In this document: positions 1 through 43,687 of the stretch, piece by piece
How positions within the stretch are numbered: the stretch's first letter is position 1
How the letters are laid out: each line of letters starts with the position of its first letter
From: Thermoanaerobaculia bacterium
GTDB lineage: Bacteria; Acidobacteriota; Thermoanaerobaculia; Gp7-AA8
Length of the DNA: 44,334 nucleotides
Direction: 5' to 3'
Assembly: GCA_017883205.1 (NCBI GenBank)
Contig: JADGNZ010000051.1
Span: forward strand, 1-44,334
The notes under the pieces: model-generated
Told to the model about the DNA's origin: nothing
Seen by the model: only the letters and a program-made list of their open reading frames with translations
Databases searched by the model: none
Position numbers and translations under genes: made by a program

Positions 1-224
1 GGAAAAAGTTTCCCTCCAGGAGGAGAAAGTTCTGCTCCGGGAGCAAATGGTTTTGCTCCGGGAGGACAAAGTTTTGCTCCAGTAGGAAAAAGTTTCCCTA
101 CAAGAGCAAATACTTTTGCTCCAGGAGCAAAAAGTTTTCCTCAGGGACCAGAAAGTCTTCCTCCATGAGCAAAAGATTTGGGTCCTGATCAGAAACGTTT
201 TGCTCGGGGCCTGAAAAGTCTCCT
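1..224. repeat. Array A: 21-bp tandem palindromic repeat, about 11 units
   Basis: Units begin at 1, 22, 43, 64, 85, 106, 127, 148, 169, 190 and 211, exactly 21 bp apart with no indel. Each is a 14-bp imperfect dyad (consensus GCAAA-N4-TTTGC, core mostly AAGT) followed by a 7-bp spacer (TCCAGGA or TCCGGGA, itself near-palindromic). Units 3 (43-56) and 6 (106-119) are the cleanest; the last three are degenerate. Some units change both arms together, for example GGAAA with TTCCC (1-14, 85-98). The array runs off the left edge, so its true length is unknown. Frame 1 translates as heptads such as GQSFAPV up to a TGA at 166-168. Arrays B and C share the geometry but not the sequence. Confidence 0.93.
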
Positions 225-420
225 CATTCGCCGAAAGAACGCAGCCGTTGGCTCCGGGAAAGGACCCCTGCGGTGAACGATTGCACAAACCGTCCCTCAT
301 CCCGGTACCCCGGAGGCAGGAACGCCTGCCCCCAGTCCCCAAACTCCCGACGCGCAGGAGAGGATCGCTCGCCTGCGCGCCATCGCTGACGACTTTCCCG
401 ACGACGCGTCGCCGAAACCA

Positions 421-852
421 TTGACGACGGCGGAACGCCGGTTGGCGAGCCGCACATCCATCGCTTTCCTGGAGAAGGCGGCGCTCTTCGCCGAGGCTGC
501 TCCGAACGTTGGAGTGGCGCTTTCCGTCGACACGTTGGTATTGCGCGACGCCATTGCCTCGGATCTCGCCACCGGAGGCATCGTCGACGAAACACGGACT
601 CTGACCTCGCGCCTGGAGGACGCGAATACCCGCAAGAAGCTCAAAGCGGTGAGGCTTGCGCGCGGCATCTATCGCGTGGCCAAGAGTTACGTGACCACCG
701 ACCTGGGGCATGTCGTGACGCCCCATGTCGAGGAGATGAAGCGCACTTTGCAGCGGCCGTACGCGAACAAGAAGAAGGCGGTGCCAGCAGAGCCGCCGGC
801 AACCACGCCGGCGGCAACGCCCAAGCCGTCTGATTCAACGCAACAGAAGTAA
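421..852 (+). CDS. Uncharacterised protein, start unresolved
   Basis: I do not recognise this family. The 143 residues from TTG 421 are mostly charged and predicted helical, with a low-complexity Pro/Ala/Thr tail (last 25 or so residues) and no signal peptide or membrane segment. The same frame is open upstream to a TGA at 274-276 and reads like protein there (it includes RLRAIADDFPDD), so the coding region probably starts before 421. There is no in-frame ATG or GTG after 276. The best alternatives are CTG 373, which has an AGGAG at 356-360, or ATT 280. This frame is also the heptad frame of array A, separated by the stops at 166 and 274. A strong hairpin terminator follows. A true but atypically started gene is likeliest; a 5'-damaged gene is possible. 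Confidence 0.6.
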   Translation: MTTAERRLASRTSIAFLEKAALFAEAAPNVGVALSVDTLVLRDAIASDLATGGIVDETRTLTSRLEDANTRKKLKAVRLARGIYRVAKSYVTTDLGHVVTPHVEEMKRTLQRPYANKKKAVPAEPPATTPAATPKPSDSTQQK

Positions 853-25882: not shown

Positions 25883-26126
25883 CCGGTCACGATCTATGAA
25901 CGATAGATCGGGACCTATCCCGGGTAGATCGCGATCTACTTTTGATAGATGCGGATCTATCCCGGGTAGATCGGGATCTACTCTTTTTAGATGCGGATCT
26001 ATCCCGGATAGATCGGTATCTATCCCGGATAGATCGGTATCTATCCCGGATAGATCGCGATCTACTTTTTTAGATCGTGATCTACCCGGGGTAGGTCGCG
26101 ATCTGAGCCTGACAGATCGAATTCTA
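25883..26126. repeat. Array B: 21-bp tandem palindromic repeat, 11 units plus a half unit
   Basis: Dyads TAGAT-N4-ATCTA begin at 25904, 25925, 25946, 25967, 25988, 26009, 26030, 26051, 26071, 26092 and 26113; a right half-site (ATCTA at 25892) lies one period earlier. Every period is 21 bp except one of 20 bp (26051 to 26071). Cores are CGGG, CGCG, GCGG, CGGT, CGTG and, in the last unit, CGAA; TAGATCGCGATCTA is a perfect 14-bp palindrome. Spacers fall in two classes: TCCCGGG/TCCCGGA and CTTTTGA/CTCTTTT/CTTTTT. The array fills almost the whole hprK-rapZ gap, upstream of rapZ. Confidence 0.95.
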
Positions 26127-40035: not shown

Positions 40036-40097
40036 TTTCACGCGGAGGCGCGGAGATGCGGAGAAAACCTCCGCGTCCTCCGCGTCTCCGCGTGAAA
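40036..40097. repeat. TTTCACGCGGAGGCGCGGAG inverted repeat, copy 2
   Basis: Near-identical to 37061-37121; the right arm reads CTCCGCGTCTCCGCGTGAAA. It lies between the VOC gene and the carbonic anhydrase gene. Confidence 0.85.
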
Positions 40098-41012: not shown

Positions 41013-41180
41013 ATGAGAATGATACATCGCGCGATACGGCGAGAGGTGCCGTCGGGCCGCCGCGCAGCTCACCGGCGAGCCGGGAAGCGGCAAACGGACG
41101 TCACGATGCAATCACGCACCTTCGAGCCCGGTAACTTGACGTCACGGCAACCGGGCAACCGCGTCGCCATCCTCGTCCCG

Positions 41181-41551
41181 CGAGTGCGGAGTCAGACTAT
41201 TCGAGTCCGGGCTTAAAACCGATGAGCCGGTACTCAAACTCTTTGAGCCGGTACCCACATCGGTTGAGTCCGTACTCACGTCCGGTGAGTCCGTACTCAC
41301 GTCCGGCGAGTCGGTACTCACGTCCGATGAGTCGGGACTCACATCTCGTGAGTCGGTACTCAAGTGACGTGAGTCCGGACTCACCACGTTTGAGTCGGTA
41401 CTCACATTTTGTGAGTACGTACTCATATTCTTTGAGTCGCGACTCACATTTTTCGAGTCCGTACTCAAGTTCGGCGAGTCCATACTCAAGTTCGGTGAGT
41501 CCGTACTCACATTTTTTGAGTCCGTACTCATATTTTTTGAGTCGGTACTCA
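41181..41551. repeat. Array C: 21-bp tandem palindromic repeat, 18 units
   Basis: Sixteen clean dyads TGAGT-N4-ACTCA begin at 41223, 41244, 41265, 41286, 41307, 41328, 41349, 41370, 41391, 41412, 41433, 41454, 41475, 41496, 41517 and 41538, exactly 21 bp apart without a single indel; two decayed units precede (41181, 41202). Cores: CGGT, CCGT, CGGG, CCGG, ACGT, CGCG and CCAT. Three units are perfect 14-bp palindromes (41370, 41412, 41433). Spacers: CGTCCGG/AGTTCGG and CATTTTT/TATTTTT classes. The 686-bp gap 41013-41698 has no other supportable gene. Confidence 0.97.
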
Positions 41552-41667
41552 AATTTGAAATCGACCGAGGGGCCGTCGGAGGGTCAGAATCATCTGATTT
41601 TGGTAGAAAACGGGCCGGAATCGACGGAGCGGTGCCGTAACTGACCTCAGTTATTCCAGCGAGTGTG

Positions 41668-41687
41668 GCCGAAGGCCGGATGAGGGC
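41668..41687. repeat. Partial copy of the CCCTCATCCGCC repeat
   Basis: GCCGAAGGCCGGATGAGGG matches the end of 12625-12682. Confidence 0.6.
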
Positions 41688-41698
41688 GTTTGATCCCC

Positions 41699-43510
41699 CT
41701 ACCTCCAGATATCCGTGATGTCCTTCGCCGTCGTCGCCCCTCCGAAAGGCGTGATGCCATAGATGTCGAGAAGCGTACGCAGGAGGTCGTAGTGCGTGTA
41801 GCTCGTCGGCGATGTCGTGCCGGGCGCTACCGGCTGTCCCATCACGATCGTCGGGATGCGGTTCTTCGGCGGTGTCGTCGTGATCACCGTGCCGGGGCAA
41901 TGGGTGGTGTAGGAGGAGCTGTCTTCGTCCCATGTCACGATCAGCAGGCTGTTGTTCTGCTCGGCCCAGCCGGCGTAGGCGCTGAGATTCGTCTGCAGCC
42001 ACGTGTCGCCGGCGCCGACCTCGTTGGGGATGCTGCTGCCGTTATGCATGTCGTCACTCAGGTTGGGGATCACGAAGCTGACGTCGGGCAGGGCCGCGAA
42101 ACCGGCGGCATCGTGAGGGAACTGGCTGAAGTTTTTGCTCGATGATGCCGGGACGTTCGTGAAATCGACCCACGGACAATGCTTCGGCGCAAACAGCGTG
42201 TCGTTGCACGTGGTGCGTGCGCCGGACGACGGAAGGTTCTCCGCGAAGCCAACGAACGACTTGCCCGCGCCGATCATCGCCGCGCCGAGGTTTTGAGAGG
42301 TGAACGGGCCGATCGGACATGTGTCGGTGCAGACGCCGAGGGTGTCGCCGGCGAAGAAGTCGATGTAGTTCGGCTGGCTTGGGTGATGCGAGGCAAAGAA
42401 CTTCGTCAGCAGCGCGCCACGCGACGCCAGATGGTTGATGAACGGAGCCTTCGACGAGCCGATGACGTTGCCGAACGACTTGTTCTCCTCGATCACGATC
42501 ACGATGTGGCTGGGAGCGGGAAGCTTCGTGTTGACAATCGTGCCCTGACCGCCGAGCGTGATCTCGAGCAAATCGGCCAGCCGGTAGCCGGCCAGCGCGA
42601 TCGCCTCGTCCGCGATCGAAGACACTTTCTTCTTATAAGCCGTAGCCGGCGTCTGGTTCTCATGCAGGCTTGCCGGATACGCCGAGCTCTTCGCCGTCTC
42701 GAACCCTTCCAGCGACCAGGCATCGAAGTCTCCCGATTTCAGCCGCGCGGCCTCGGACGCCTTCGGATGATCGTGCACGATCACGGCGATCACCCGGTCG
42801 AGGTAGACGAGCTGCGTCTCCGACGAGCCCTGCAGAATCGAGTTGTCGATGATTCGATCCCAGAACTTGTGCAGAGGAGAGATTGCCTGCGGCGCCAGGA
42901 GAAACAAGTTTCCGCCCTGGTCGCCGGCCGGATTCGCATCCGTGACGCGGGAGGCGGCGTGGAGCGGCTGGTGGACGTCTCCCGTGAGGTGCATCATCCA
43001 GGCGAGTTGCATCGCCCGCTCCGACACCGCTCCGCAGGGAACGGTGTCGCAGGCAACGGTGTGGCGAAACGTGGTCAGGCGCTCGACAGCGTTGGTTGCC
43101 GGCGTCGGGATGGCGGTGTCGTCGGTGGGGGCGTCGCTGCCCGTAGCGCCCGAAACACCCTTCCAGAACCTGTCGATGAAATGCCACTCCCTCTGATGGA
43201 AACGCGTACACGCGCGGGGATCGTTCTGATCCTTCGGCCGGACGACGTCGGGCCAGGTCGCAGCACGCATGAAGAACTCGCGCTGGCGGTCTGCGAGTGG
43301 TCTCGCATCATTCGGGAAGAGATCGAGCAGGCAAGCGTCGCTGGGAGCACTCTTCAGAAGCGCGATCGCCTTGTTCCGGGCGTCCGGCGACATGTTGTCC
43401 CAGGCGATTCCGGCGACCAGCTCATGACCGGTACCGTTCCAGGCAAGGAGCGACGAGGGCAGGCACGAGACGAGGACGAGAACGAGAGCAGGAAAGCCGA
43501 GGCGTTTCAT
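41699..43510 (-). CDS. S1/P1-type nuclease fused to a phosphoesterase-family domain
   Basis: 603 aa. After the signal peptide (residues 1-23) Trp24 becomes the mature N-terminus; Trp1 and His6 (here Trp24 and His29) are zinc ligands of P1 nuclease. Further zinc motifs: FHQREWHFIDRF, MHLTGDVHQPLH and LHKFWDRIIDNS, so the first 320 residues are an S1/P1 nuclease. From about residue 330, PSHIVIVIEENKSFGNVIG, SHHPSQPNYIDFFAGD and TWDEDSS identify a phosphoesterase of the AcpA/phospholipase C type. Probably secreted and acting on nucleic acids plus phosphoesters, perhaps for phosphate scavenging. Confidence 0.92.
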   Translation of the reverse strand: MKRLGFPALVLVLVSCLPSSLLAWNGTGHELVAGIAWDNMSPDARNKAIALLKSAPSDACLLDLFPNDARPLADRQREFFMRAATWPDVVRPKDQNDPRACTRFHQREWHFIDRFWKGVSGATGSDAPTDDTAIPTPATNAVERLTTFRHTVACDTVPCGAVSERAMQLAWMMHLTGDVHQPLHAASRVTDANPAGDQGGNLFLLAPQAISPLHKFWDRIIDNSILQGSSETQLVYLDRVIAVIVHDHPKASEAARLKSGDFDAWSLEGFETAKSSAYPASLHENQTPATAYKKKVSSIADEAIALAGYRLADLLEITLGGQGTIVNTKLPAPSHIVIVIEENKSFGNVIGSSKAPFINHLASRGALLTKFFASHHPSQPNYIDFFAGDTLGVCTDTCPIGPFTSQNLGAAMIGAGKSFVGFAENLPSSGARTTCNDTLFAPKHCPWVDFTNVPASSSKNFSQFPHDAAGFAALPDVSFVIPNLSDDMHNGSSIPNEVGAGDTWLQTNLSAYAGWAEQNNSLLIVTWDEDSSSYTTHCPGTVITTTPPKNRIPTIVMGQPVAPGTTSPTSYTHYDLLRTLLDIYGITPFGGATTAKDITDIWR

Positions 43511-43608
43511 GGACCTCCTCCTGGCTGCCCTTCATCAAGGTGAGGGCCGGCAGCCTACTTGAGGAGAGTCCGGCTGGACACGGATCCCTACCCTGCGGTG
43601 GAGGACCG

Positions 43609-43677
43609 ATCCGCAGATGACGCAGATGGACACAGATGCCGGCAATCTCATCTGCGTCATCTGCGTAATCTGCGGAT
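43609..43677. repeat. CCGCAGATGACGCAGATG inverted repeat
   Basis: Left arm ATCCGCAGATGACGCAGATG and on; right arm CATCTGCGTCATCTGCGTAA and on, with tandem internal GCAGAT words. A 69-bp hairpin between the two minus-strand genes. Confidence 0.82.
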
Positions 43678-43687
43678 GGGGGGCGAA

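Follow-up and report, generated by a model that had tools for sequence, protein, structure and literature searches.

Does the tandem array of short dyads at positions 41181..41558 of the window (the whole stretch of 44,334 nucleotides analyzed here) stand alone, or is it part of a larger genetic unit, and is it conserved as a DNA site, an RNA stem, or a coding repeat? The initial annotation of this array (array C) described 18 units without an indel, invariant arm positions, and core changes that keep the dyad, and took the pattern for protein-site or stem conservation. The window belongs to a genome of 6.37 Mb in 105 contigs (hereafter, G000). Array C, for which the minus strand is the gene-sense orientation, and its conserved flanks are arranged as follows.

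41181..41558, minus strand: array C, 18 units of 21 bp, each a dyad TGAGT-N4-ACTCA followed by a 7-bp spacer
41559..41657, minus strand: leader, a conserved flank on the gene-sense 5' side, away from the would-be position of the gene, with a sharp outer end (GGAATAACTGA)
41137..41180, minus strand: conserved gene-side flank of array C, 44 bp

The unit structure was as first described. Starting from 41181, array C comprises 18 units with no indel (17 of 17 spacings are exactly 21 bp), and its last dyad ends at 41551, as claimed, or at 41558 if the last spacer is included. The first two units (41181 and 41202) are degenerate, and positions 2–4 (GAG), 10–11 (AC), and 13–14 (CA) are identical across the 16 clean units, with the arms TGAGT/ACTCA nearly fixed. 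Based on three C-type arrays (L090, L130, and the window), the arms vary at 1–3% of positions compared to 34–36% in the rest of the unit, which upholds the reading as protein-site or stem conservation; the argument drawn from pairing at core positions 6 and 9 was refuted. The complementary pairs reported at these positions are present (C/G at 41328, 41370, and 41433; A/T at 41412), and the degenerate unit 41202 carries C/G there too, so that 5 of 18 units are complementary in array C alone. When pairing covariation was examined in 130 units from eight homologous arrays, however, positions 6 and 9 were complementary 28 times versus 39.0 expected, and the share of 5000 column shuffles at or below the observed count was 0.0004. 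The core changes thus do not keep the dyad, and complementarity at 6/9 did not hold up as a pairing constraint: the C-type core avoids pairing at these positions. The inner core pair (7/8) was complementary 72 times versus 64 expected (134 units). We also found, in agreement with the annotation, that the variation is not codon-like. Mean variability by phase of the 21-bp unit was 0.24, 0.13, and 0.30, the differences between phases stem from the 7-bp spacer, and of the two plus-strand frames that are mostly open, one is least variable at the third position.

Judged by its relatives, array C is far beyond chance, because homologous arrays occur in five other places of G000 (76–84% identical, six copies in total) and two in the same-genus genome G002 (79–80% identical). 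The same search returned no C-homologous arrays in 58 other genomes. The homology extends into the flanks in both genomes: a query covering 41552–41680 matched the other five G000 copies with 88–95% identity over 106–117 bases, and on the gene side, homology beyond the 44-bp flank stops at points that differ between copies. Aligned in gene sense, the six G000 copies share a sharp start at GGAATAA and have a variable opposite end. In one of the six (the C42 copy), a protein-coding gene of the family described below follows the array, as it does in the C module at L130 in G002, and array C itself is a gene-less copy, without an adjoining family ORF. Neither a target-site duplication nor an empty site could be established for these modules; in a DNA synteny comparison of G001 and G002, the matches listed were those of the element and of a short repeat unrelated to it, with no empty site.

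Several other elements were noted around these arrays. A single minus-strand ORF with S1/P1 nuclease and phosphoesterase domains (PF02265, PF04185) spans window positions 41699–43510. A GC-rich short palindromic repeat of the CCTCCGCGTCTCCGCGTGAAA type, unrelated to the 21-bp arrays, lies at 40036–40097, with dozens of matches scattered over G001 and G002. An inverted repeat around 'ATCCGCAGATGACGCAGATG ... CATCTGCGTCATCTGCGTAATCTGCGGAT' occupies 43602–43679, with similar letters in the 5' flank of the L093 array. Outside the window, a phage-type integrase gene (L202, 6525–7436, minus strand) has as its neighbor, 47 bp away, a gene-less array grouping with the C type.

A common ORF of 259–298 codons (stop to stop), directed away from the array, was present beside the arrays of loci L006, L009, and L019, and 80 ORFs from the initially identified loci constitute one family. 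This family is lineage-specific and strongly expanded, and its small proteins have a core of about 165 aa that is probably helical. Using a 69-row family profile (threshold E 1e-5 or better, all candidates scored), we recovered 160 matches, including fragments at contig ends: 65 in G000, 54 in G002, 30 in G009, nine in G001, and two in G016, and none in G008, G010, and G012. Among 297 genomes drawn evenly from the phylum, with 12 candidates per genome scored, family matches were limited to G000 and G009. Database comparisons gave no name to the family. There was no match over the cut-off in Pfam (three members scanned) or NCBIfam (six members), and NCBIfam, PHROGs, and PADLOC together gave nothing of weight for six members (the best being a PHROG of unknown function at E 0.003). 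The 69-row profile found no relative in the PDB (best E 0.67), a 10-row profile (A2) had no match in viral contigs, and one member searched against plasmids and another against phages had none. Transposase or recombinase domains were absent from the members scanned (three and six). AlphaFold2 models were of low confidence (pLDDT 42.9 and 57.8), with no DNA-binding fold visible, and basic tails gave no support to DNA binding (charge of +4 or more in 10 of 80 ORFs).

We compared the position of arrays and family genes. The array search covered 80 ORFs of 72–73 loci together with the window and L208, out of the 160 matches. Counted by locus and restricted to loci with at least 1600 bp on the side examined, an array of ~21-bp units was found within 1600 bp upstream of the family ORF in 53 of 60 loci versus 0 of 65 loci downstream. 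By genome, upstream arrays were present in 24/26 loci of G000, 18/20 of G002, 8/10 of G009, 2/3 of G001, and 1/1 of G016. Counts per ORF, in which ORFs sharing one locus array are counted apart, were 57/66 upstream and 0/72 downstream. A repeat downstream of the L104 gene was not included, as fewer than 1600 bp are available there, and it resembles a Lys/Ala-rich coding repeat. Under a second criterion (TRF within 2.6 kb), arrays were identified at 60 of 80 ORFs. The 20 TRF-negative ORFs comprise 11 with <1 kb of contig upstream, one in a three-gene, single-array cluster, and eight that have >2 kb of upstream sequence yet no TRF array. The array is often several hundred bp away from the gene, and in 12 loci another ORF lies between them.

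This second ORF (L111, L114, L115, L142, L145, L147, L148, L157, L158, L165, L166, and L168) is mostly about 240 codons long with an Arg-rich N-terminus, and the ten aligned sequences carry GRAPP near the end; in two G009 loci, it forms one continuous frame with the family ORF. A conserved ORF also occurs 3' of the family gene in seven loci (L113, L121, L150, L161, L162, L163, and L167), and in the four loci checked with Pfam (L113, L121, L161, and L163), it belongs to the protealysin-like M4 peptidases. Contig ends, including the starts of G000 contigs C92 and C37, often carry arrays and family ORFs; the repeats therefore probably break the assembly there, and the gene numbers given above may be low.

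Besides array C, the window contains one array with its gene and a second one without.

1..230, plus strand: array A, 21-bp period, dyad type GGAGCAAAAnnTTTTGCTCC, upstream of a family ORF
277..852, plus strand: family ORF, core 322–810, profile E 4e-18 and 6e-20
25902..26104, no strand assigned: array B, 21-bp period, dyad TAGATCNNGATCTA, flanked by two predicted genes on the minus strand

Array A is cut by the contig start (TRF extent 1–174), and its last units are degenerate. Because the first in-frame ATG, GTG, or TTG of the ORF at 277..852 does not occur before 421, the 5' end of this ORF, or the copy as such, may be degraded, and G000:C37:323-811 holds a close paralog. The array at L208 likewise has an adjoining family ORF. 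Array B has none, and its sequence is related to arrays that precede family genes, such as those at G000:C1:74377 and C32:1716. Of 23 arrays in sampled G000 sequence and the window, 20 are intergenic according to our own simple hexamer gene caller, even though 86.5% of this sequence is predicted to be coding, and no preference of orientation is evident. Half of the array regions in the G000 sample (10/20, in eight places) group with a gene-linked array type. Array density per 100 kb was 4.50 in G000 (400 kb), 1.67 in G002 (180 kb), 2.50 in G009 (160 kb), 0.52 in G016 (191 kb), and 0 in G001 (176 kb), and no arrays were detected in 190 kb of G012 and 136 kb of G010 (326 kb), which both lack the family gene. 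Across these seven genomes, array density broadly tracks the number of family genes, with two exceptions: G001 has nine matches and no array in the 176 kb, and G002 has fewer arrays than G009.

Array sequences vary from locus to locus, and a feature that they share is the spacing. In 81 tandem regions (at least 150 bp each, mostly from family loci), the mean unit was 21.05 bp (SD 0.56, units within 18–24), and four fell outside 19.5–22.5. Periods of 20, 41, 43, 64, and 65 occur among them, so the spacing is helical rather than codon-based. Dyads were analyzed in 65 of 84 arrays, the others having a consensus of only two or three units or too few units. Consensus units formed, on average, 6.2 of 9 pairs versus 5.1 in shuffled units, reaching p < 0.05 singly in 19/65 arrays; the stem was 3 or shorter in 10/65. 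In 44 of 55 arrays with a stem of at least 4, the stem was less variable than the remaining positions of its unit (mean 0.109 vs. 0.223). Double changes in stems were complementary in 45 of 80 cases, which is compatible with symmetric sites as well as with stems.

Single changes in the stems were used to compare a DNA site with an RNA stem. With the better-scoring of the two symmetry axes of each tandem unit, G-T mismatches on the gene-sense strand numbered 114 versus 130 A-C mismatches (p 0.34; 39 gene-linked arrays with a stem of at least 4), and by array, 11 were for wobble, 17 against, and 11 tied. Because there is no pooled excess of G-T over A-C, this result speaks against RNA stems and favors a DNA site for the arrays in general, within the limit set by the use of one axis per unit. 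The C family taken alone behaves differently, with G-T 31 versus A-C 7 on the gene-sense strand (distinct 21-mers, p 0.0001; the copies are related and not independent). Part of this excess derives from shared descent and from the outermost pair, without which it is 16 versus 6. It is the main evidence against the DNA-site reading for array C itself, which may be under stem constraint.

In another reading, which the G-U excess of the C family favors, transcription runs through the array towards the gene, and the array acts as a string of RNA hairpins, either as the RNA partner of the protein, as in the layout of type III toxin-antitoxin systems, or as a leader controlling expression. The one-sided upstream position of the arrays agrees with this reading, the C-type units of L090 and L130 could fold into hairpins with a 4-nt core, the avoidance of pairing at 6/9 is loop-like, and the complementary double changes fit a stem. 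We nevertheless consider it unlikely: wobble is not preferred when the arrays are pooled, several arrays are perfect palindromes with a loop of 0 (e.g., L099, L114, and L141), a period fixed near two DNA turns would be unexpected for RNA, and Rfam has no match in the window at the gathering threshold.

The history of the arrays relative to their genes was examined in 53 of 69 proteins by comparing protein identity with shared array words. Among pairs with 70–80% identity, 8/12 share almost no array words, and among those with at least 80% identity, 3/16 have almost none in common and 13/16 have words in common. Among the closest pairs, arrays thus follow kinship, and in-place replacement is not the rule there. 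Even so, L165 and L168, with proteins 90–91% identical and second ORFs 84% identical, have unrelated arrays. Five amino-acid changes between these two proteins lie within ten codons, which we treat as a lead only; no protein positions co-varied with array type (84 pairs, p 0.79), and the L165/L168 pair speaks against simple recognition of the array by the family protein. Leaders were compared using L090, L130, L091, and L093, and L099, L100, L139, and L144, as their own seeds. The leader of the C module (L090, L130) has a shorter likeness before other dyads at L091 and L093, which is weak (E 0.013 and 0.05), and the leader shared by L099, L100, and L139 recurs at L144 before a different array. 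A universal leader motif was not found, and leaders are clade-specific. From these sequences, we infer that an array can change between a leader and a gene that are both kept.

Alternatively, the modules could be selfish mobile elements, with the family protein, alone or together with the second ORF, promoting their spread, the arrays serving as its sites, and array C being a non-autonomous copy. Dispersed copies whose homology ends inside the flanks, the sharp outer end at GGAATAA with a variable inner end, the 65 matches in a single genome, and the occurrence of gene-less and gene-linked arrays of common types would all be expected of such elements. This explanation appears unlikely, given that the scanned members have no transposase or recombinase domain, that the family is without matches in viral contigs (A2 profile), plasmids, or phages (one member each), that neither a target-site duplication nor an empty site was established, and that unrelated arrays can stand beside nearly identical proteins.

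It is quite improbable that the arrays are neutral, satellite-like repeats that collect between genes and carry functionless dyads. Close paralogs with wholly different array sequences, the many gene-less arrays, and the weak dyads of several arrays would agree with neutrality, but the one-sided linkage to the gene, the conservation of the dyads, a common period across unrelated sequences, and the lack of arrays in the sampled sequence of two family-less relatives do not. Hardly credible is a heptapeptide repeat encoded by array C (21 nt as seven codons), in spite of the few units with stops (of 130 units, 6 and 2 in two plus-strand frames, and 11 and 0 in two frames of the minus strand), since the variation is not codon-like, sister arrays have periods of 20, 41, 43, and 65 bp, and our hexamer gene call predicted no gene across the array; for the array set as a whole, a coding heptad repeat is refuted.

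Known systems resemble these modules in part. ToxIN, as outlined in one source (PMC8860590), pairs an antitoxin made of multiple RNA repeats with an endoribonuclease toxin. The modules resemble such type III toxin-antitoxin systems in that an array of tandem repeats immediately precedes a gene for a small protein. The arrays studied here differ in being mirror-symmetric, spaced at two DNA turns, and without a pooled RNA-stem signature, and the family differs in having no Pfam match over the cut-off (three members) and up to 65 matches per genome. ToxI repeats are also longer than the units found here. Membership in a ToxN-type endoribonuclease family was rejected for want of a match in Pfam (three members), NCBIfam (six), or the PDB; a distant relative beyond the reach of sequence methods may exist.

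The REP/BIME elements and their RAYT genes are similar in comprising dispersed short palindromes outside genes that form clusters, exist as copies with and without a gene, and fall into several types per genome, whereas the gene linked to the arrays here belongs to another family. REP palindromes carry a GTAG or CGTC tag at one foot, according to the description in PMC3733652. Array C was rejected as a REP/RAYT member, with GTAG in 0 of 18 units and no adjacent Y1 transposase gene. CGTC directly follows the dyad in 3 of 18 units (41265, 41286, and 41307), inside the variable spacer. The Y1 (HUH) transposase domain (PF01797) has 15 matches in G000 and none on the contig of the window, the nearest one to a listed family match being about 2.2 kb away (on C29).

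The iterons of plasmid replicons are direct repeats of about 20–22 bp in helical phase beside a gene. The arrays share with them units of about 21 bp in helical phase next to a gene, but number in the tens within a single genome, spread over many of its contigs; an iteron replicon was rejected, given no replication-protein domain (Pfam, three members) and no plasmid match (one member). Operator and centromere-like arrays bound by dimeric proteins, such as plasmid partition sites, are tandem phased dyads beside a gene. In this respect they match the modules, which differ in that the site sequence can change wholly between close paralogs. A CRISPR array, with identical repeats and unique spacers of ~30 bp, does not fit array C, whose spacers are 7 bp and in several cases common to different units. 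Because type III toxin-antitoxin loci, REP/RAYT elements, and iterons each fail at least one tested defining feature, we regard the module as categorically new as an arrangement, and we found no description of such modules in the open-licence literature searched.

The arrays are most likely DNA-level sites, phased at two helical turns, that serve the adjacent gene. Array C is a gene-less dispersed copy of a leader-array module that normally stands upstream of a gene of the unnamed family; our confidence in the explanation taken whole is evenly balanced. The module consists of a short leader and an array of 10–20 dyads every 20–22 bp (about 16 to 18 in the array C type) upstream of the family gene, with a second ORF between them in some loci. 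With a two-turn period, every unit would present a single site of dimer size, all of them facing the same side of the helix, so that a putative dimeric protein could coat the array cooperatively, and the coated array may set the output of the adjacent gene, either as an operator or as a nucleation array. For the binder, the family protein would be the obvious candidate, but no protein positions followed array type and the structure models showed no DNA-binding fold. Over time, the sites would be replaced in place, the leader and gene persisting while the dyad sequence changes, and gene-less copies such as array C may act as decoys or extra nucleation sites or may be by-products of module spread. 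More tentatively, these modules could represent a chromosomal leader-array-gene system in which the array is actively rewritten in place, the leader and protein are kept, and the gene-less arrays are dispersed targets or products; it would be a nucleoprotein or self-recognition system particular to this lineage, and its specificity would change.

A family with 65 matches in one genome, most examined members of which stand behind a phased-dyad array of their own, is not explained by the repeat and gene families tested here. Unrelated arrays before close paralogs, partly under a similar leader, point to in-place turnover of binding-site arrays, and such turnover, if true, would account for an entire class of the tandem repeats that these genomes carry.
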